A stretch of 22,941 nucleotides of DNA from a virus. The notes under the pieces are model-generated. The model had not been told where the DNA came from. It did not search any database and saw only the letters and a program-made list of their open reading frames with translations. Each line of letters opens with the position of its first letter. The stretch's first letter is position 1. Positions 7,926 through 22,742 of this stretch are shown here, piece after piece. The position numbers and the translations under genes are program-made. The stretch covers positions 1 to 22,941 of IMG/VR virus record IMGVR_UViG_3300007363_000113; one strand, 5' to 3'.

Positions 7926-9346
7926 GTTCCTCCCACATAAACACCTTGATAACTTTTGACCCAGGCATCACCATTCCACTCGTATTGTATACCAGTAGTA
8001 ATGTTTGTAACATACTGTCCAGCAGCTTGCCCCTCGGCTCTGAACACGACCTTCCAATAATTACCAGTGTATTCAATAATATCGTTAGCAGCGGCAATTA
8101 GAGGACGACCGTTTTCTCCAACCCATGCCACAGCAGGTGCAAGATTGTCTTCACTGCCAGTATTTTCTGTAAGCAAATATCGTTGGCCCTCAAGAGCTGA
8201 ATCTAATCCATCTTGTGGACCACTTGCTAAAGGATTGATCACAGCGTCAATAGGATCAAGAGTGTTTTGTGGCGTGGTATCTGTGTCAACATCAAATAAC
8301 ACAAATCTATCATCATTGGGATCAAGTACTATAGTTCCAACTACTTCTGATTCATCAGGTTGAATTAATCTTATTTGGCTAATGCCAGGCCGTAGTACTC
8401 CATATGTATCAATTACAGCAGGCCATAATAGATTGCTGTCTGTAACAATTTGTGTAGGCTCTAGACTAGTGTTGTTTGGTTCTTGTACAATACTACGTTG
8501 TTGTAAACATTGCACTCTATTGCCAATAAGCACAACTGCCCAATTGTACGGAGTAATTATTTGTCTAGTGCCCATTAGCAAATCATTGTTGGTCACGGCG
8601 TTGTTTAAGTCACCTTGTGCATCGTACATAGATGCAATAACACGTTCTACCACGCCCAGCTTCTTGACTTTAATCGGTGAGCTGAGCCAAATTGGTATGT
8701 TGAATTTAATTGTGGCCATGTCTATGGGATTGTCGGTACCAATAGGAACTGTGCGAGAAGTCCATGTAACTGACTCAAGTTCAACCACAGTCAAGCTAGT
8801 CCAGTCTATGTAGTTATCGGTGCTTTGTACTTCCAAACTAGGGTTGAACAAAGTCAACATTTGCTCTAACAGTTGCATCTTTTGGTTGGTGTTTGATGTC
8901 CAGATGTCCAAGGTTATGCCCATTTTGTAAGGCACAGGCATTAGACGCTCAATAGTAAAAGCATTGCCTTGTGTGGGTTCAAAAGTATCAGTTTCGCTGT
9001 CATAGGTGCGTTGACGCACATTGACCTTGCTCACAAAGTATGGCTCTTGCATTCTAGGACGATCATAATCCAAACTTGAAATATAGAATGTCATCAGCGG
9101 ACTTGCTGGCATTGAGTTACGACTGTTCTCTTGAATAATGGTTTGTACGTTGCGGCTGGCATCACCATAGCGCACAGGCACACGAATCAACGCGGCGTTG
9201 TTAACACCGTTGTTTTCGTTACCGTATTCGATTTGAAAATTGCTGACAATTCTAGTGAATTGTAGTAGGAACCGGCGTAATTGTTCATCGTAAAAATAGG
9301 CTTGAATTTTAATTCTCCTTGGCCAATTGGCGTTTTTGTTCTTCAC
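7907..9346 (-). CDS. 15: Tail sheath stabiliser and completion protein, T4 gp15-like
   Basis: The N-terminal half aligns with T4 gp15 by eye: AYFYDEQLRRFL against T4 GYFYNSSFRRYA, SNFQIEYG...IRVPVRYGD against SNIQIKR...IRVPITYAS, and MPVPYKMGITLDIWT...LLEQML...FNPSLEV against SPIKMIYELSIFT...VEQILPYFQPHFN. gp15 forms the ring at the head-proximal end of the tail, where it stabilises the sheath and tube and docks on the neck. The protein is about 200 residues longer than T4 gp15; the extra C-terminal part ends in YEWNGDAWVK and GGTWRLVL strands. The only standard start is a GTG at 9346, inside the upstream endonuclease gene, which adds 13 residues with no counterpart in T4. Homology and a perfect AAGGAG (9320-9315) point instead to an ATT codon at 9307; see findings. 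Confidence 0.82.
   Translation of the reverse strand: MKNKNANWPRRIKIQAYFYDEQLRRFLLQFTRIVSNFQIEYGNENNGVNNAALIRVPVRYGDASRNVQTIIQENSRNSMPASPLMTFYISSLDYDRPRMQEPYFVSKVNVRQRTYDSETDTFEPTQGNAFTIERLMPVPYKMGITLDIWTSNTNQKMQLLEQMLTLFNPSLEVQSTDNYIDWTSLTVVELESVTWTSRTVPIGTDNPIDMATIKFNIPIWLSSPIKVKKLGVVERVIASMYDAQGDLNNAVTNNDLLMGTRQIITPYNWAVVLIGNRVQCLQQRSIVQEPNNTSLEPTQIVTDSNLLWPAVIDTYGVLRPGISQIRLIQPDESEVVGTIVLDPNDDRFVLFDVDTDTTPQNTLDPIDAVINPLASGPQDGLDSALEGQRYLLTENTGSEDNLAPAVAWVGENGRPLIAAANDIIEYTGNYWKVVFRAEGQAAGQYVTNITTGIQYEWNGDAWVKSYQGVYVGGTWRLVL
9305..9320 (-). promoter_or_regulatory. gp15 ribosome binding site with apparent AUU start
   Basis: On the minus strand AAGGAG (9320-9315) is followed by 7 bases and then ATT (9307-9305), the codon aligned with the initiator of T4 gp15. 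The Shine-Dalgarno sequence is formed by the last Lys-Glu codons of the homing endonuclease, whose TAA stop (9311-9309) lies between the two. This makes AUU the best-placed initiator, although use of the upstream GTG at 9346 cannot be excluded. Confidence 0.5.
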
Positions 9347-9830
9347 GCTTTTTACAACGAATTGAATGGGCTAATTTCATTTCTTCGGACCAGCGTTTTG
9401 CATGCGGTTTACCTTTTCCAGGATGAACCTTGCCCTTCATAGCACCACCATCTTGTCTTTTCCATCCACCTACTTTGGTAGTAGCATGTCGTAGCTTTTG
9501 TGCCACCCTCATTCTTTCAATGCTTTCGGGGCTATGTGTCTTGTTGCCACCAGCTTCTCTGTTGTTGTAAACTACAATTCCTTGAGATCTATAATAGGTA
9601 AGCCAGTAGTCTTCTTTGTCATTTAATTCTTCTAGGGATTCAGCGTTATCAATAATTTCCCATGTAAATGATTCTTTTCCGTACTTCCTGATACTGTCTA
9701 GCAAATAACTTTTCTTTCCACGGCGAGCATCGGATAAATGAGAATACCAACGTGTCTTAGGATTTCGTTGAACAGTTTGCCCAATGTAGACTTTACCATT
9801 AGAAGTGTTTGTTATTTTATAAATGTGCAT
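9309..9830 (-). CDS. GIY-YIG homing endonuclease with NUMOD3-type DNA-binding repeats
   Basis: The 173-residue protein has a GIY-YIG nuclease domain at residues 1-95: HIYKITN (3-9), KVYIGQT (13-19), an Arg at 27, a catalytic-type Glu near 73 in the LNDKEDYW helix, and YNNREAGGN at 88-96. Two NUMOD3-like basic segments follow: SPESIERMRVAQKLR (100-114) and GKGKPHAKRWSEEMKLAHSI (138-157), with a Lys-rich tail. This is the architecture of free-standing Seg-type endonucleases in T4-like phages, which cut phage lacking the gene and spread by recombination repair. It sits between the gp14 and gp15 neck/tail genes and overlaps the extended gp15 frame by 38 bases. No intron or splice-site structure was found around it, so it is taken as free-standing. 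Confidence 0.9.
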   Translation of the reverse strand: MHIYKITNTSNGKVYIGQTVQRNPKTRWYSHLSDARRGKKSYLLDSIRKYGKESFTWEIIDNAESLEELNDKEDYWLTYYRSQGIVVYNNREAGGNKTHSPESIERMRVAQKLRHATTKVGGWKRQDGGAMKGKVHPGKGKPHAKRWSEEMKLAHSIRCKKREEQKRQLAKEN

Positions 9831-9861: not shown

Positions 9862-11238
9862 TTAACTCGATGGTTGTCCAGGTTGTGTGTTAGGCGGTGG
9901 ATTTGGGGGTAAGTTACCACCTTGGTCGCCGTTGTCAGCACGTGGCTTGAGAGCCTCACTGAGACTTTGACGACTTGGAATGTTGCCCATGTCTGTGGTG
10001 CGCACAGTGTATGTATTGTTAACAAAGCTGGAGCGCAAAGTATTGTTAGCAGGCCCATTATTGAGATTTGTACGCACACCATCTTCAATCTTGGCCCAAC
10101 GTTTCACAGTTGAATTATATCTAAACATACGATTTGGGAAATAATCTAATCTCAAACAATAATCTCCATCCACAGGATTAAGAGGAAAAGCTACACCTGT
10201 GGTAACAGGAGCACCATTTGGCACTGTATCCCCGGTCAAGTAACCTTTGGTATAGCCTGGACCTGAAGGCGTAACATTCATGCCACCTTGCGTACCGTCC
10301 ACAGTAACACCATCAGAAGTGGTCAAAGAAGTTGGGTTTGCGGGACTGCCATCAGCTAATGTTGGCGCAATATAATATTGTGCAGTATCATACCCGCTGA
10401 GAGGAACTTCGACATCTGCTTGTGTGAGTATGGCATCGTTGATTTCGTTGTCTTTGGTTCTTGTACTGAATAGATCACTCTGTGTGGGCGGTGTGTATTC
10501 TGCCCAATATTCTGTGTTGGTTATAGCTGTTCCTGCCGGCACATTTTTTTGTGCTTGATAATACACATCACCATAATTTGTAACCCATCCAGTAGGATAA
10601 AAATTGCCATTGTCCCAAATATTCTCACTGACCACAGGTTTCTTGAGAATGTCTTTGAACTCTTGATTGTTGGTCATTGGTGTGGCTTTTACACGCCAGG
10701 TGTGCGGCATCCAAGTTTGGCTCATGCCTTCTGTGGCATAGTCGGCATCTTGTACAACGTAATATTTTGGAAGCGGCTGCGGAATAGCTTGATTCAGCGG
10801 ATGATAATCTTTTAAGTTAGGAACTTCCAGCACGTCGCCGTTCATTAGTTTACGGCCAAACGTGTCAATCATATCATTGTAGTGAAACGTGATAAACAAG
10901 GTATCGTTGTTCAAGAACAAACCAAATTGTGTGAGGTCAAAGTCAACGTCCTGGTGAGTGTACACACCGCGCATGATGTAAACGTCTTGATCATACACTC
11001 GATCTCGGTTTTCTAATAACAACAGGTCTTGGATGTTAAGTGGGTTTAATTCGTCGTAAATAGGTTGAGTTGCGTCTCCGTTCCCAGATAGCGCAGAATC
11101 TTCACCGCCAGTTTGCGGACCCATGTATTTGTGGACGAAAATGTCCATACCTCCAACTGTGTACATTTCGGAGATAGTACGATCTAGAAACTGATAATCG
11201 CGGGTACGATTCGGGCGGTAAAGTGACAATCGAGGCAT
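9862..11238 (-). CDS. 14: Neck protein, T4 gp14-like
   Basis: The 458-residue product has a core resembling gp14 of marine T4-like phages: DVYIMRGVYTHQDVDFD (85-101), FGLFLNNDTLFITFHYNDMI (105-124), NGDVLEVPNLKDYHPLN (133-149) and the PKYYVV...WRVKATPMTNNQEF region (157-194). gp14 forms the neck with gp13 and joins the packaged head to the finished tail. T4 gp14 is about 256 residues; the excess is a C-terminal extension from about 200 on. It contains a GWVTNYGDVYY...YWAEY module (217-248) similar to one in gp18, a DGDYCLRLDYFPNRMFRY...RW module (357-381), and a Pro/Asn-rich tail. It is the first gene of the minus-strand operon. A CATAAATA box lies 7 bases before the ATG and no Shine-Dalgarno sequence is visible. 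Confidence 0.72.
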   Translation of the reverse strand: MPRLSLYRPNRTRDYQFLDRTISEMYTVGGMDIFVHKYMGPQTGGEDSALSGNGDATQPIYDELNPLNIQDLLLLENRDRVYDQDVYIMRGVYTHQDVDFDLTQFGLFLNNDTLFITFHYNDMIDTFGRKLMNGDVLEVPNLKDYHPLNQAIPQPLPKYYVVQDADYATEGMSQTWMPHTWRVKATPMTNNQEFKDILKKPVVSENIWDNGNFYPTGWVTNYGDVYYQAQKNVPAGTAITNTEYWAEYTPPTQSDLFSTRTKDNEINDAILTQADVEVPLSGYDTAQYYIAPTLADGSPANPTSLTTSDGVTVDGTQGGMNVTPSGPGYTKGYLTGDTVPNGAPVTTGVAFPLNPVDGDYCLRLDYFPNRMFRYNSTVKRWAKIEDGVRTNLNNGPANNTLRSSFVNNTYTVRTTDMGNIPSRQSLSEALKPRADNGDQGGNLPPNPPPNTQPGQPSS

Positions 11239-11245
11239 AGTCTAG

Positions 11246-11253
11246 TATTTATG
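11246..11253 (-). promoter_or_regulatory. Late-type promoter box CATAAATA for gp14
   Basis: The box is 7 of 8 identical to TATAAATA and ends 7 bases before the gp14 ATG at 11238. By T4 geometry RNA would begin about two bases before the AUG, which would leave almost no leader. It lies in the divergent spacer, next to a sigma70-like promoter pointing the other way. Confidence 0.55.
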
Positions 11254-11259
11254 GGCAGG

Positions 11260-11288
11260 TTGACCATTAAATTCCGTTCTGCTATAAT
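11260..11288 (+). promoter_or_regulatory. Sigma70-like promoter TTGACC-17-TATAAT
   Basis: The -35 hexamer TTGACC (11260-11265) has 5 of 6 consensus bases, the spacer is exactly 17 bases, and the -10 hexamer TATAAT (11283-11288) is perfect. Transcription would begin near 11295, giving a leader of about 20 bases with AAAGGAG before a GTG start at 11317. This looks like a host-RNA-polymerase (early) promoter and differs from the late-type boxes found elsewhere in the window. Confidence 0.78.
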
Positions 11289-11316: not shown

Positions 11317-12444
11317 GTGAAATCCGTTAAACTGTTAAATCCCCGTAGTTCGGATACCAACGTCATGGGCGGAGAACCCGCTTGGAAAAACCAGCCCACT
11401 GAAAATCGTATCAGTGCTCTAAGCCATGCATTCAGTTGGTATAATTATTTCTACGGCAAAAAAGATGCTCGCGACATGATCGTAAACTACTTGGAAGCAC
11501 ATGGTCGCAAGGCAGATGTTAAAATCTTAAAAAGTATTCCAGATTCATCTATTCGTCTTACCACAGGCTGGCTGTGTCGCATGAGCATGGTAGGACTGCA
11601 ATTGGACGAGCACGAACAAATTAAACTGGATAATTTGCTCAATGAAGTTTTAACTAGTAAACCAGTCCAAACAGTAGAGCCCGAGCCTGATCTAGACACG
11701 CCGGCCAAACCCAATATTCAAGATCGCCTGCGTGAAAAAGTCAGCGAATGCATGGGCGAGCTTGAAGGTTTGTTTGATGAATTTATTGCCACCGGTGCCA
11801 AACTCACAGCCGACTACAAGCCAGTGTCGCTGATGCGTTCAATGAATATTGCACCGCAAATGGTGTCAATAATCCGGGACAAGTGGACTAAAAAGCTAGA
11901 AGAGTTTGAAACAGTGGTGGAAGGCCGAGATCCTGACCTAGCCAAAGCCTATGACTACATGACAAAAACACAGCTCAAATCGTGTGTTAAATTTTGTGAG
12001 CTTGTGATCAGTGACTGCGGTAGTTATGTTCAGATTAAAAAGGTAGAACGCAAGCCGCGCAAGGTCAAGCCAGTAACGCCAGAAAAGAAAGCGGCCAAGT
12101 TTAAGTTTCAAGTAGAGTTTGCAGAGCTCAAGCTCAAAAGCCTGCCTGCCGCACAACTTGTAGACAAGTCAGAAGCCTGGTTGTATGAAAGCAAAAAACG
12201 CAAACTCATACATCTTGTTGCTGATGAGTATGCCAAGGTGTTTACTGTAAAAAACAACAGCATCATTGGGTTTTCTACTGTAGAAACGCTACAGAAAACT
12301 GTTCGCAAGCCGGCCGAAACTCTAAAGGCAATTACAGCCGCAGGCAAACCAGCCGCTCGTAAAATTTTCAAAGATATCAAAACTACCGAAACAGCCTTTA
12401 ACGGTCGTGGCACGGAGAACTTGATCATCCTTCGCGTCTGGTAA
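11317..12444 (+). CDS. Conserved phage protein of unknown function, probably early expressed
   Basis: I chose the GTG at 11317 because AAAGGAG lies 5 bases upstream and the frame's earlier ATG at 11251 lies upstream of the -35 box of a strong promoter. The product is 375 residues. The N-terminal part (KLLNPRSSDTNVMGGEPAW, then AFSWYNYFYGKKDARDMI and TTGWLCRMSMVGLQL) looks like a compact, mostly helical domain that I recall only as a conserved hypothetical of environmental T4-like phages. A negatively charged linker (about 115-140) leads to a second helical half. The segment KKVERKPRKVKPVTPEKKAAKFKF, at about residues 242-265, is very basic, and the C-terminal third is also basic. Nucleic-acid binding is possible but not shown. 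No catalytic motif was recognised. It is the only gene between divergent gp14 and gp13. Confidence 0.7.
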   Translation: MKSVKLLNPRSSDTNVMGGEPAWKNQPTENRISALSHAFSWYNYFYGKKDARDMIVNYLEAHGRKADVKILKSIPDSSIRLTTGWLCRMSMVGLQLDEHEQIKLDNLLNEVLTSKPVQTVEPEPDLDTPAKPNIQDRLREKVSECMGELEGLFDEFIATGAKLTADYKPVSLMRSMNIAPQMVSIIRDKWTKKLEEFETVVEGRDPDLAKAYDYMTKTQLKSCVKFCELVISDCGSYVQIKKVERKPRKVKPVTPEKKAAKFKFQVEFAELKLKSLPAAQLVDKSEAWLYESKKRKLIHLVADEYAKVFTVKNNSIIGFSTVETLQKTVRKPAETLKAITAAGKPAARKIFKDIKTTETAFNGRGTENLIILRVW

Positions 12445-12447
12445 ATA
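12440..12447 (+). promoter_or_regulatory. Late-type box GGTAAATA before gp13
   Basis: GGTAAATA matches TATAAATA at 6 of 8 positions and ends 19 bases before the gp13 ATG; the same sequence with the same 19-base spacing precedes gp19. The box overlaps the stop codon of the upstream gene. With T4 geometry RNA would start at about 12453, inside the left arm of the hairpin described separately. Confidence 0.5.
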
Positions 12448-12468
12448 TAAGGGACTGGAGTCCCTTAT
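12447..12468 (+). promoter_or_regulatory. Hairpin enclosing the gp13 ribosome binding site and start codon
   Basis: ATAAGGGAC (12447-12455) pairs perfectly with GTCCCTTAT (12460-12468) around the loop TGGA. The loop and first paired base supply the GGAG Shine-Dalgarno sequence, and the right arm ends with the A and T of the gp13 AUG (12467-12469). In RNA that reads through from upstream, the start codon would be base-paired. No U-tract follows, so it is not a terminator. Confidence 0.7.
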
Positions 12469-13228
12469 GGCTGAAAATACCCTACCCGAGTTAAAGCAAA
12501 ACCTAATTGAATATTGCAAGTTAACAATGGGTGATCAAATTATTGATCTTGAATTAGATCCTGCACACTACGAAGCGGCGTATCAGCGTACTATTGGCAC
12601 CTATCGTCAACGTGCCAACAATGCCTATGAAGAAGCATACATTTTTATGGAGTTAATTCAAGATGTAAACATTTACACCTTGCCCCAAGAAGTGTATAGT
12701 GTGCGTCAAATATTCCGCAGAACCTTTGGCGACTCTACAGGACCATTTGCCTCAAACTTTGATCCTTTTGCACAGGCCTCAATCAACGTGTACCTCATGA
12801 ACTTCAACGTAGCCGGCGGCCTGGCCACATACGATTTCTATTCACAGTATGTTGAACTAGCTGGACGTATGTTTGGTGCATACATGAACTACACCTGGAA
12901 TCCTGTTACAAAGAAACTACAACTGATTCGTGACCCCAAAGGCACTGGCGAAAACGTGCTACTCTGGGTGTATCAAACCAAACCTGAAATTCAACTTTTA
13001 AGTGACTACCAAATTAGTCAATGGATTCGTGATTACATGGTAGGTGCTTGTAAAATGATCATTGGAGAAGCTCGTGAAAAGTTTGCTCAAATTGCAGGAC
13101 CACAAGGTGGCGGCCAGCTAAACGGTACTCAAATGAAAACTGAAGGCCAGGCCATCATGGATGCTAAAATTGAAGAACTCAAACTGTATGTGGATGCAAG
13201 TCAACCACTTACCTGGGTCATTGGGTAA
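12467..13228 (+). CDS. 13: Neck protein, T4 gp13-like
   Basis: The 253-residue product resembles gp13 of environmental T4-like phages. It has an N-terminal helical LKQNLIEYCKLTMGDQIIDLEL region, AYQRTIGTYRQRANNAYEE, then NYTWNPVTKKLQLIRDP (about 140-156), WVYQTKPEIQLLSDYQISQWIRDYMVG and REKFAQIAGPQGGGQ (about 202-216). It ends in PLTWVIG. The opening LK...I...G..II.VEL pattern also fits T4 gp13, which is about 309 residues. gp13 works with gp14 at the head-tail junction, stabilising the packaged head. It is transcribed away from gp14, whereas in T4 genes 13, 14 and 15 are adjacent and collinear. Start choice is clear: GGAG lies 6 bases before the ATG, though in a hairpin. Confidence 0.75.
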   Translation: MAENTLPELKQNLIEYCKLTMGDQIIDLELDPAHYEAAYQRTIGTYRQRANNAYEEAYIFMELIQDVNIYTLPQEVYSVRQIFRRTFGDSTGPFASNFDPFAQASINVYLMNFNVAGGLATYDFYSQYVELAGRMFGAYMNYTWNPVTKKLQLIRDPKGTGENVLLWVYQTKPEIQLLSDYQISQWIRDYMVGACKMIIGEAREKFAQIAGPQGGGQLNGTQMKTEGQAIMDAKIEELKLYVDASQPLTWVIG

Positions 13229-13926: not shown

Positions 13927-14448
13927 ATGAGCTCGCTAATGATTGATATCGAAACACTGGGAGTAGCCCCGGCCGCTACAATTCTAACCATTGCCGCTCA
14001 AGCATTTGATCCACTGGGCAACGGCTATTTTGATCGGTGTTTCTACGCAAGAATTACTCTTGAAAGTCAAGAAAATCGAACCATTGACGACGGCACCATA
14101 GCCTGGTGGGCCACTCAACCACTGGCACAGGCCGAAGCATTTGCTGAAGAAAATAGAATACCATTGGATCAAGCCCTAGACGAGTTAGGCAAACTAATAT
14201 GGACCAGCAATTTTTTGTATAGTCAAGGCCCCACGTTTGACATGACCATACTAGAACACGCCTACAAAAGTTACGGTAAACCCATTCCCTGGCAATACTA
14301 CAAGGTTCGTGATAGCCGTACAGTATTCTCTCTGTGGCCTGGCTTGCCTAAGCCGCCCACAAGTCACCACGCACTTGAAGATTGTCGCAGGCAAATCAAA
14401 CTGCTACAAACGACACTTAAACACTTAAACGTAAAGGAACTGGCATGA
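13927..14448 (+). CDS. dexA: 3'-5' exonuclease of the DEDDh family, T4 DexA-like
   Basis: The 173-residue product has Exo I DIET (Asp7, Glu9), Exo II GPTFDM with Asp105, and Exo III HHALEDC with His148 and Asp152: the complete DEDDh metal-binding set. Other blocks match T4 DexA in order: TIAWWATQPLAQA against TIEWWKNQSPEAR, FDMTILEHA against FDFPILVDL, and VRDSRTV against QRDIRTR. DexA degrades single-stranded DNA from 3' ends; in T4 it is non-essential and may help in host DNA breakdown or recombination. The start could be ATG 13927 or ATG 13939 (MIDIETLG). The latter suits the promoter better, because RNA from it would begin at about 13928. The stop overlaps the kinase start by 4 bases (ATGA). 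Confidence 0.83.
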   Translation: MSSLMIDIETLGVAPAATILTIAAQAFDPLGNGYFDRCFYARITLESQENRTIDDGTIAWWATQPLAQAEAFAEENRIPLDQALDELGKLIWTSNFLYSQGPTFDMTILEHAYKSYGKPIPWQYYKVRDSRTVFSLWPGLPKPPTSHHALEDCRRQIKLLQTTLKHLNVKELA

Positions 14449-15107
14449 TCGTTGGTATTGTGGGCCTGATAGGCGCTGGCAAAGACACTGCCGCCGACTA
14501 CCTGTGTAATTTTCATGGTTTTCGCAGAGAAAGTTTTGCCAATACGCTGAAAGATGCTGTGGCCTGTGTGTTTGGATGGGATAGAGTTTTGCTAGAAGGC
14601 CGTACAAAACAGGCTCGCGAGTGGCGAGAACAAGTGGATCCCTGGTGGGCCCAGCGTTTAAATGTGCCTGACTTGACCCCAAGATACGTGCTACAACAAT
14701 GGGGTACTGAAGTTTGCCGCCGTGGATTCCATGATGATATTTGGATTGCCAGTTTAGAAAACAAACTACGCAACAGCCAGGATGATGTGGTGATCAGTGA
14801 CTGTCGTTTTCCCAATGAAATAGCAGCAATTAAACAGGCTGGGGGACTAGTGGTTAGGGTAGTTCGCGGGCCCGAACCCGAGTGGTACGAGGCTGCTGGT
14901 AGTGTTAATCGAGGCCCCAACGGCAATGTTACCTGGGCTACCAGCCGTGAACGACTGAAAAAACTAGGCATTCATGCCAGCGAAACTGCTTGGATTGGCA
15001 CCAAGTTTGATGCGGTGTTGGACAATAACAGCACACTGGACCACTTATATCAACAGGTAAAAGCCCTGGTCACAAGTCCGGCTCAAGATCTCCCGGACGC
15101 CAAGTAG
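14445..15107 (+). CDS. 1: Deoxynucleoside monophosphate kinase, T4 gp1-like
   Basis: The 220-residue product has an N-terminal P-loop GLIGAGKDT (7-15), a LKDAVACVFGW helix (35-45) as in the LAGPIKDALAYAWG region of T4 gp1, an LQQWGTEVCR block (83-92), VVISDCRFPNE (115-125) matching the T4 IVPDTRQDHE substrate block, and a conserved SETAWIG near 179-185. T4 gp1 phosphorylates dNMPs, including modified dCMP, to dNDPs for phage DNA synthesis. Substrate range, and whether this phage uses a modified base, cannot be told here. It is translationally coupled to the exonuclease gene (ATGA overlap) and probably shares its sigma70-like promoter. Its last 38 bases overlap the opposing HNH-like gene. Confidence 0.85.
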   Translation: MIVGIVGLIGAGKDTAADYLCNFHGFRRESFANTLKDAVACVFGWDRVLLEGRTKQAREWREQVDPWWAQRLNVPDLTPRYVLQQWGTEVCRRGFHDDIWIASLENKLRNSQDDVVISDCRFPNEIAAIKQAGGLVVRVVRGPEPEWYEAAGSVNRGPNGNVTWATSRERLKKLGIHASETAWIGTKFDAVLDNNSTLDHLYQQVKALVTSPAQDLPDAK

Positions 15108-15417
15108 CATCGGTTTTTTTCAATAACTCAACACAGTTAAGACAAACTGTTTTTAAATTTCGTTGTTCTAGGTTGTTGAGATTTCCGTCCACATGAAACA
15201 CCAATAGTTGCGTTGACAGCTTGGCCTTAAACCCGCATCGATCACATGCGGGTTTTTTCTTGTAGCCAGCAGATTTCCACCGTGGTTCTCGTGGGCGAAG
15301 TCCACGTCCCTTTCTTGTGCAGTTTTCACACCGTGATCTATAGTGTGTGATATTTTCTTTGATGTAGTTTACAGCACATGGACGTTGATGACATGACTGA
15401 CAAATGGGCCTTTGCAT
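15070..15417 (-). CDS. HNH-like zinc-ribbon protein, probably not a standard nuclease
   Basis: Taking ATG 15417, the product is 115 residues; a GTG at 15453 would add 12. It begins MQRPICQSCHQRPCAVNY, with a first Cys pair, then a CENCTRKG pair. A second zinc site follows in ACDRCGFKAK and VCLNC. Between them, QLLVFHVDGNLNNLEQRNLKTVCLNC has the layout of an HNH domain (normally xDHxDGNxxNN...NLxxLCxxCH). Here Phe replaces the Asp before His and Val replaces the terminal His, so catalysis is doubtful. I recall similar degenerate proteins in other marine T4-like phages, close to structural genes. A structural zinc-binding or DNA-binding role is as likely as nuclease activity. It is a lone minus-strand gene, convergent with gp1 and divergent from gp18. 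Confidence 0.68.
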   Translation of the reverse strand: MQRPICQSCHQRPCAVNYIKENITHYRSRCENCTRKGRGLRPREPRWKSAGYKKKPACDRCGFKAKLSTQLLVFHVDGNLNNLEQRNLKTVCLNCVELLKKTDATWRPGDLEPDL

Positions 15418-22133: not shown

Positions 22134-22742
22134 ATGAAACCATTTGCAAAATACCTAGCCGAAAGCGAACGTACATACAACTATCGCATCAAAGTAGTTG
22201 GAGAAGTTCCCGAAGGCTTTTTTAAAAATCTAAAGGAAAAGTGTGCTCAGTTTGACGTTGTAAAAATGTCAACACCTAAAAGCACTCCAGTTCGTAAAGT
22301 TATTCCAGACTTTCCGGCATTTCCTAATCAATCAGTAACCAGAATTGATGTAGAGTTCAAATATCCAGCCATTGAGCCACAGATCAAACAGTTGGCACAA
22401 TTGCTTGGGTTAGATCCAAATCGTATTGTGATGAATACTACACCTTATGAAGAAAGCATGGATTCAGAGTCTGTGAAGATTGATGATGAAAACAAAGACT
22501 TGCTAGACGATCCCACATATCCTGCTCCTGACCGAGAGCAAAAAGCATTAAGCAAAGATTATGCAACTGGTCCTTACGATCATGAAGTTGTAAAGAACGC
22601 TTACAAGAGCGACTTTACAGTAGCTGGTGGTCAAACAGCACCTGCCAAAACAACAAACGAATTGCCCATGGGAGACCAGAGTCCCTTTAGCAATATCAAA
22701 CGTCAACCCAAGCCAGCCACTGGCGCACAACCTCGAGGATAA
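22134..22742 (+). CDS. Conserved phage protein of unknown function
   Basis: The 202-residue product starts MKPFAKYLAESERTYNYRIK. A compact alpha/beta domain covers about 1-105: YRIKVVGEVPEGF, LKEKCAQFDVVKMSTP, VTRIDVEFKYPAIEPQIKQL, LGLDPNRIVMNTTPY. This alternation of strands and helices suggests a small ferredoxin-like fold. The rest (about 106-202) is polar, Pro/Asp/Lys-rich and probably disordered. Similar proteins in marine T4-like phages lie near head genes, so a prohead-core or packaging accessory role is possible, but nothing in the sequence proves it. It has its own late-type promoter and is followed 5 bases later by another gene. Confidence 0.68.
   Translation: MKPFAKYLAESERTYNYRIKVVGEVPEGFFKNLKEKCAQFDVVKMSTPKSTPVRKVIPDFPAFPNQSVTRIDVEFKYPAIEPQIKQLAQLLGLDPNRIVMNTTPYEESMDSESVKIDDENKDLLDDPTYPAPDREQKALSKDYATGPYDHEVVKNAYKSDFTVAGGQTAPAKTTNELPMGDQSPFSNIKRQPKPATGAQPRG

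Follow-up and report, generated by a model that had tools for sequence, protein, structure and literature searches.

A covarying hairpin over the start codon of the neck gene gp13 in jumbo phages suggests an early/late translation switch

Introduction

Hairpins in the start region silence early read-through RNA of the T4 genes e, soc and 49, as well as of I-TevI and Aeh1 mobE (PMC3014915), and the same review documents the precedent of e, soc and 49 that an earlier, sequence-only reading of the DNA analysed here had invoked. For the related jumbo phage CBB, the published description reports a gp55-like factor and RpoD-like early promoters, the latter clustered before short hypothetical genes, with ATAAATA motifs before structural genes (PMC5259590).

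The gp13 locus

The gp13-like gene considered here matches jumbo-phage proteins annotated as neck proteins, the closest cultured homologues being those of Agrobacterium phage Atu_ph07, PA5oct and XaC1 (43, 40 and 38% identity, respectively). The window, that is, the whole 22.9-kb stretch of DNA analysed, is an IMG/VR record whose relatives are T4-related jumbo phages; no near-identical DNA was found in the phage collection. The gene is separated by 22 nt from an upstream gene on the same strand, and the locus comprises the following features.

9862-11238, minus strand: virion structural gene of PHROG 11591, divergent, with its own TAAATA at 11246-11251 (minus strand)
11260-11288, plus strand: sigma70-type extended -10 promoter, TTGACC-N17-TATAAT, 11/12 match with TG; proposed source of early/middle read-through
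11317-12444, plus strand: upstream co-directional gene with a GTG start, PHROG 11903 (function unknown), by profile match
12440-12447, plus strand: late-promoter-like box GGTAAATA, core TAAATA at 12442-12447; core also present ahead of gp13 in relatives whose upstream genes differ
12446-12455, plus strand: left arm of the start-codon hairpin, ATAAGGGAC at 12447-12455 in Watson-Crick pairs, plus U12446
12453, plus strand: predicted late RNA start, 6 nt past the last A of the box by T4 geometry
12456-12459, plus strand: hairpin loop TGGA, read from the sequence
12457-12460, plus strand: Shine-Dalgarno (SD) sequence GGAG, of which GGA is in the loop and the last G in the stem
12460-12469, plus strand: right arm, GTCCCTTAT at 12460-12468, spanning the AUG; from the fold and covariation
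12467-13228, plus strand: gp13-like neck gene, PHROG 211 (head-tail adaptor Ad2), E 6e-26

The perfect 9-bp hairpin noted in the sequence-only reading (12447-12455 with 12460-12468, loop TGGA) can be read directly in the sequence. Two of its details need correction. The gp13 ATG occupies 12467-12469, and the fold adds a U12446-G12469 pair to the nine Watson-Crick pairs (10 bp), so that not only the A and U, as stated earlier, but all three bases of the AUG are paired. The hairpin had also been said to hold the GGAG site, which is accurate for the last G, located in the stem, but not for GGA, which is in the loop. Thus, the start codon and the spacer are locked more tightly than the SD sequence, and given that the latter lies mostly in the loop, the translational block might be partial.

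Folded in isolation, the 9-bp hairpin has a computed free energy of -11.5 kcal/mol, and the 70-nt fold around the gp13 start has a z-score of -2.1. Under a first-order Markov model, 1.45 perfect 9-bp hairpins are expected per window by chance; a bare hairpin of this length is therefore not rare, and its significance comes from its position and the comparative evidence.

The late-type box ends at 12447, exactly where the Watson-Crick left arm begins, in agreement with the sequence-only reading, and this direct junction of a T4-type late box with the 5' arm is kept in relatives. The box overlaps the stop codon of the upstream gene (12442-12444). That GGTAAATA is a mere by-product of this stop codon was considered and rejected because TAAATA persists where another upstream gene, with a different stop, is present. 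Other TAAATA boxes in the window precede the sheath gene, the tube gene and the gene at 22134. In two related loci (L260 and L264), TAAATA is located just 6 nt ahead of the gp13 ATG, so that RNA started from it by T4 late geometry would have almost no leader.

Elsewhere in the window, a GIY-YIG-type homing endonuclease gene lies between structural genes (9309-9830, minus strand), exonuclease-like and deoxynucleoside monophosphate kinase genes are located between gp13 and the sheath gene (13927-15107, plus strand), and a strong terminator-like hairpin with a T-run is found ahead of the sheath gene (15229-15255, plus strand).

Conservation and covariation of the hairpin

Most of the 80 viral contigs whose gp13 shows 83-98% identity have the succession of TAAATA, hairpin and ATG. 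The arms vary (AAGGGAC, GGGGGAAC, AAGGAAC, GTAGGAAC, TCAGGAAC and more) with pairing kept. In the set of 104 unique window-type gp13 sites, the arms stay paired through repeated compensatory change on the gp13 tree: there are 316 paired cells compared with 274 when right arms are shuffled among sequences (0 of 2000 trials reached 316), and the gp13 DNA tree requires at least 8, 13 and 10 changes of Watson-Crick type at pairs 3, 6 and 7, respectively, with rows without a Watson-Crick pair at the given position set aside. The compensatory changes that the sequence-only reading proposed to look for in relatives are thus present. Two pattern scans for the box, the hairpin core and ATG recovered at least 137 contig stretches, with overlapping loci; in the loci covered, all of the 175 exact box-hairpin-ATG matches listed belong to gp13 homologues.

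The pairing is not universal. Some same-strand window-type relatives, for example, L009, L045, L055, L059, L060, L074 and L080, lack the hairpin; altogether, retention of gp13 without the pairing, which by the earlier reading would refute a switch, is found in a minority of the same-orientation relatives (about 13%) and in one clade whose gp13 mostly lacks a same-strand upstream gene. The switch accordingly appears to be common, not obligatory.

Across all loci, the switch is present in 105 of 121 cases with a same-strand upstream gene and in 9 of 47 with an opposite-strand one. On the tree, this link comprises about 5 independent changes, of which 3.6 agree with it and 0.2 disagree (p ~0.25, not significant). 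A strict rule by which a co-directional upstream gene always goes with the hairpin, and the hairpin never occurs without one, was rejected as absolute: the trend is strong, but the independent changes are few and there are clear exceptions. In a further clade, with gp13 45-54% identical to that of the query locus L268, TAAATA is kept and the SD sequence is at a similar distance; gp13 is mostly found beside the divergent PHROG 11591 gene, and the switch score is near the null (median 2.0, 40 unique loci). Among the same-strand loci of this clade, 4 of 6 are without a strong hairpin, two with a sigma70-like promoter upstream. We also discarded the possibility that the divergent arrangement is the same upstream gene inverted; in these hairpin-poor relatives, the PHROG 11591 structural gene is the immediate neighbour of gp13.

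Unrelated hairpins in distant jumbo phages

In Munch and its close relatives, the hairpin is ACCCCTATAAATATTGTA...ATAGGGGT; its left arm contains the box and its right arm the SD sequence. The gp13 hairpins of the relatives L227-L238 and of XaC1 are CCCCTAAATATG...CATGTTTAGGGG and ATCCTCTAAATATG...TTTAGAGGAT, respectively. In PA5oct relatives, the hairpins (TAAATACTCTGTAT-A-ATACAGAGG, TAAATACTCTACATCATAGTAGAGG and others) show matching changes in both arms. The hairpins of Munch, XaC1 and the PA5oct relatives share with the window the geometry around TAAATA and are unrelated to it in sequence. Those of the Munch/XaC1 type are followed by a T-run that also makes them look like terminators, and they may have a dual action; the window-type hairpins lack such a run. 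In T4 itself, gene 13 (L270:3560-3640) has a GGGGCC-GCAA-GGCCCC hairpin just 5' of the SD sequence and no TAAATA box.

Computed accessibility of the start

We computed the opening cost, that is, the free energy required to open the stretch from ATG-12 to ATG+2, for a long RNA beginning 30 nt 5' of the box and for a late RNA beginning 6 nt past the last A of the box. Over 139 unique gp13 sites, the medians are 11.4 kcal/mol for the read-through and 3.2 kcal/mol for the late-start RNA, compared with 4.1 and 2.3 kcal/mol for other open reading frame starts with a TAAATA box (n = 288); the difference for gp13 under the leader-shuffle null averages 1.4 kcal/mol. A difference of at least 3 kcal/mol is observed for 88% of the gp13 sites and 27% of the other starts. 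Folding of both RNA forms for the window, as the sequence-only reading had proposed, predicts a closed start on the read-through RNA and an open one on the late-start RNA (12-14 vs 3.2 kcal/mol). For late starts at 12452-12455, the cost in the window runs from 4.8 to 1.7 kcal/mol; among window-type sites, the result is robust for starts at +5 to +8 and weaker at +3 and +4. The sheath gene, the tube gene and the gene at 22134 of the same window have no such structure (3.1, 2.5 and 2.9 kcal/mol, respectively, on long RNA).

As positive controls, T4 gene e drops from 15.9 to 3.8 kcal/mol (15.4 to 1.1 with the nearer box) and gene 49 from 12.9 to 3.5. T4 soc, a published example, changes only from 7.2 to 6.6 kcal/mol, so the measure misses some cases.

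By switch score, gp13 ranks third among the 49 TAAATA starts of the related genome G001 (~342-343 kb). The top score there (20.5 vs 1.9 kcal/mol) belongs to a tail-fibre-like gene (G001:C1:336676, minus strand; L298) with the TAAATA box inside an SD-pairing hairpin, GGGTTC.TGG-TAAATATA-CCA.GGACCC. Two other late-type starts of this genome (G001:C1:161750 and 306963, minus strand) have the box in or beside the left arm and the SD sequence in the right arm or the loop. Further candidate start-region switches are the tail sheath gene of a Munch-like phage (L224:4518, plus strand; CCTCCAATAAATA...TTTTGGAGG) and a small gene 3' of gp13 in related loci (e.g. L230:3788).

Upstream promoter and late sigma factor

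The strong sigma70-like promoter that the sequence-only reading placed at 11260-11288 is the best such match in the scanned part. It ends 28 nt before the PHROG 11903 gene, and TTGACC-N17-TG-TATAAT precedes this gene in nearly all window-type relatives. G001 contains 35 TTGAC-N16-18-TATAAT sites, compared with about 1 in shuffles, mostly ahead of clustered small open reading frames; in its 317-340 kb region, which encompasses gp13 and the sheath gene, the site present is the one before the PHROG 11903 gene. These sites may well be early promoters, in line with the promoter layout of CBB (PMC5259590).

A late sigma factor of the gp55 family is encoded in G001 and in another relative, G002 (133 kb) (PHROG 12791, E ~1e-75); the late sigma gene falls outside the window, a 23-kb fragment. 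With the T4 protein as the query, no gp55-like match was found in G004, G006 or Munch, maybe for reasons of sensitivity.

A putative translation switch and its alternatives

We consider it likely that gp13 is governed by a cis-acting translation switch set by the transcript start, such that the long RNA is silent and the late RNA open. RNA starting at the promoter at 11260-11288 would cross the PHROG 11903 gene and enter gp13; carrying both arms, it would fold the 9-10-bp hairpin over the spacer and the AUG, which is proposed to block 30S initiation. A gp55-type late promoter (box at 12442-12447) would start RNA near 12453, without most of the left arm; this late RNA would be unable to form the hairpin, and gp13 would be translated. 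With the long RNA blocked and the late RNA open, gp13 would be made from its own late transcript, not from early/middle read-through. At the RNA level, we infer this switch from computation, which supports it, with the late start site, the timing classes and the translational block as the parts of the model deduced in this way. The sequence data themselves establish the hairpin, the box and the promoter with their conservation, the covariation of the arms and the computed gap in accessibility. The early/late reading offered from sequence alone is supported, in that every prediction open to computation held: the covarying arms, the box kept even beside other upstream genes, an RNA start predicted to fall inside the left arm, the conserved early-type promoter, the late sigma factor in relatives and the recurrence with unrelated hairpins.

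The chief rival invokes the same chemistry for a different purpose: the hairpin would be an insulator rather than a timer, blocking any RNA started upstream, late or early, so that the dose of gp13 is set by its own promoter alone. The hairpin structure cannot distinguish early from late read-through, and in the PA5oct relatives L241, L248 and L256, the gene next upstream of gp13 has a TAAATA of its own. In the window clade, by contrast, the upstream gene is preceded by a promoter whose class is found mainly in early-type regions of small open reading frames, and we regard insulation as unlikely.

Less probable still is that the inverted repeat is primarily a binding or processing signal (a protein operator, an RNase site or an intrinsic terminator of the Munch/RaK2 type), with a secondary effect on translation. 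The T-runs that follow the hairpins of the Munch/GAP32/XaC1 type fit a terminator, but window-type hairpins lack them, and there is no matching Rfam family. Furthermore, the arm sequences are free to change with pairing kept, which speaks against recognition by a sequence-specific protein.

It is highly improbable that the hairpin helps initiation by presenting the SD sequence in its loop, as in T4 genes 25 and 38: the GGA is in the loop and helpful structures are documented (PMC3014915), but SD and AUG are normally spaced to begin with, and the window stem covers the AUG itself, whereas in 25 and 38 the stem sits between the SD sequence and the AUG. Least credible of all is a functionless chance hairpin, which, although expected 1-2 times per window, is contradicted by the conserved position, the compensatory changes and the recurrence in distant lineages.

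The early/late switch might extend further. Early/late switching of gp13 is quite possibly widespread and repeatedly re-evolved in T4-related jumbo phages, mainly downstream of a same-strand early-promoted gene, and present at further late genes (some sheath and tail-fibre genes), although we stop short of calling this broader claim probable. If true, early/late hairpin switching would be a general device rather than a T4 curiosity. The gp13 case by itself would show that a mechanism demonstrated for a handful of T4 genes also acts on a virion component, the neck protein, in many uncultured jumbo phages. The unrelated hairpins of the same geometry would serve as natural replicates, and the boxes without a hairpin, where the strand has no upstream gene, as natural controls. 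This would provide a sequence-only way to predict late genes in the path of early transcription, by which genes of unknown function, such as that of PHROG 11903, may in turn be suggested as early.

Comparison with known systems

In kind, the proposed mechanism is that already described for T4 e, 49 and I-TevI. Its conserved occurrence at a neck gene seems to be unreported in the open-access literature searched, as the sequence-only reading had supposed: we found there no report of a hairpin switch on gp13 or in jumbo phages (subscription papers fall outside this scope), and a search for transcript-end maps of close jumbo relatives yielded nothing usable.

CBB and GAP32 resemble the window in the predicted ATAAATA late-type motif before structural genes, the two-promoter logic proposed here and the gp55-like factor, which on the side of the window is encoded in relatives; unlike in the window, a start-codon hairpin is not reported in the available part of that work (PMC5259590). 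T4 genes 25 and 38 are, like gp13, late genes with start-region hairpins (split SD structures), but these structures raise initiation by shortening the SD-AUG distance. In T4 49, soc, I-TevI and Aeh1 mobE, as in gp13, a start-region hairpin acts, or would act, against early read-through RNA (PMC3014915); unlike gp13, these are nuclease or capsid-decoration genes, not from jumbo phages, and recurrence at a single gene with differing, unrelated hairpins is not shown for them. T4 gene e shares with gp13 the late box, an RNA start that falls inside the left arm or past it (predicted for gp13), a start region predicted to pair in the longer RNA only and similar computed opening costs; it differs in being a lysis gene (lysozyme) with two late promoters, in a phage of 169 kb, and in having a switch that is experimentally shown (PMC3014915).
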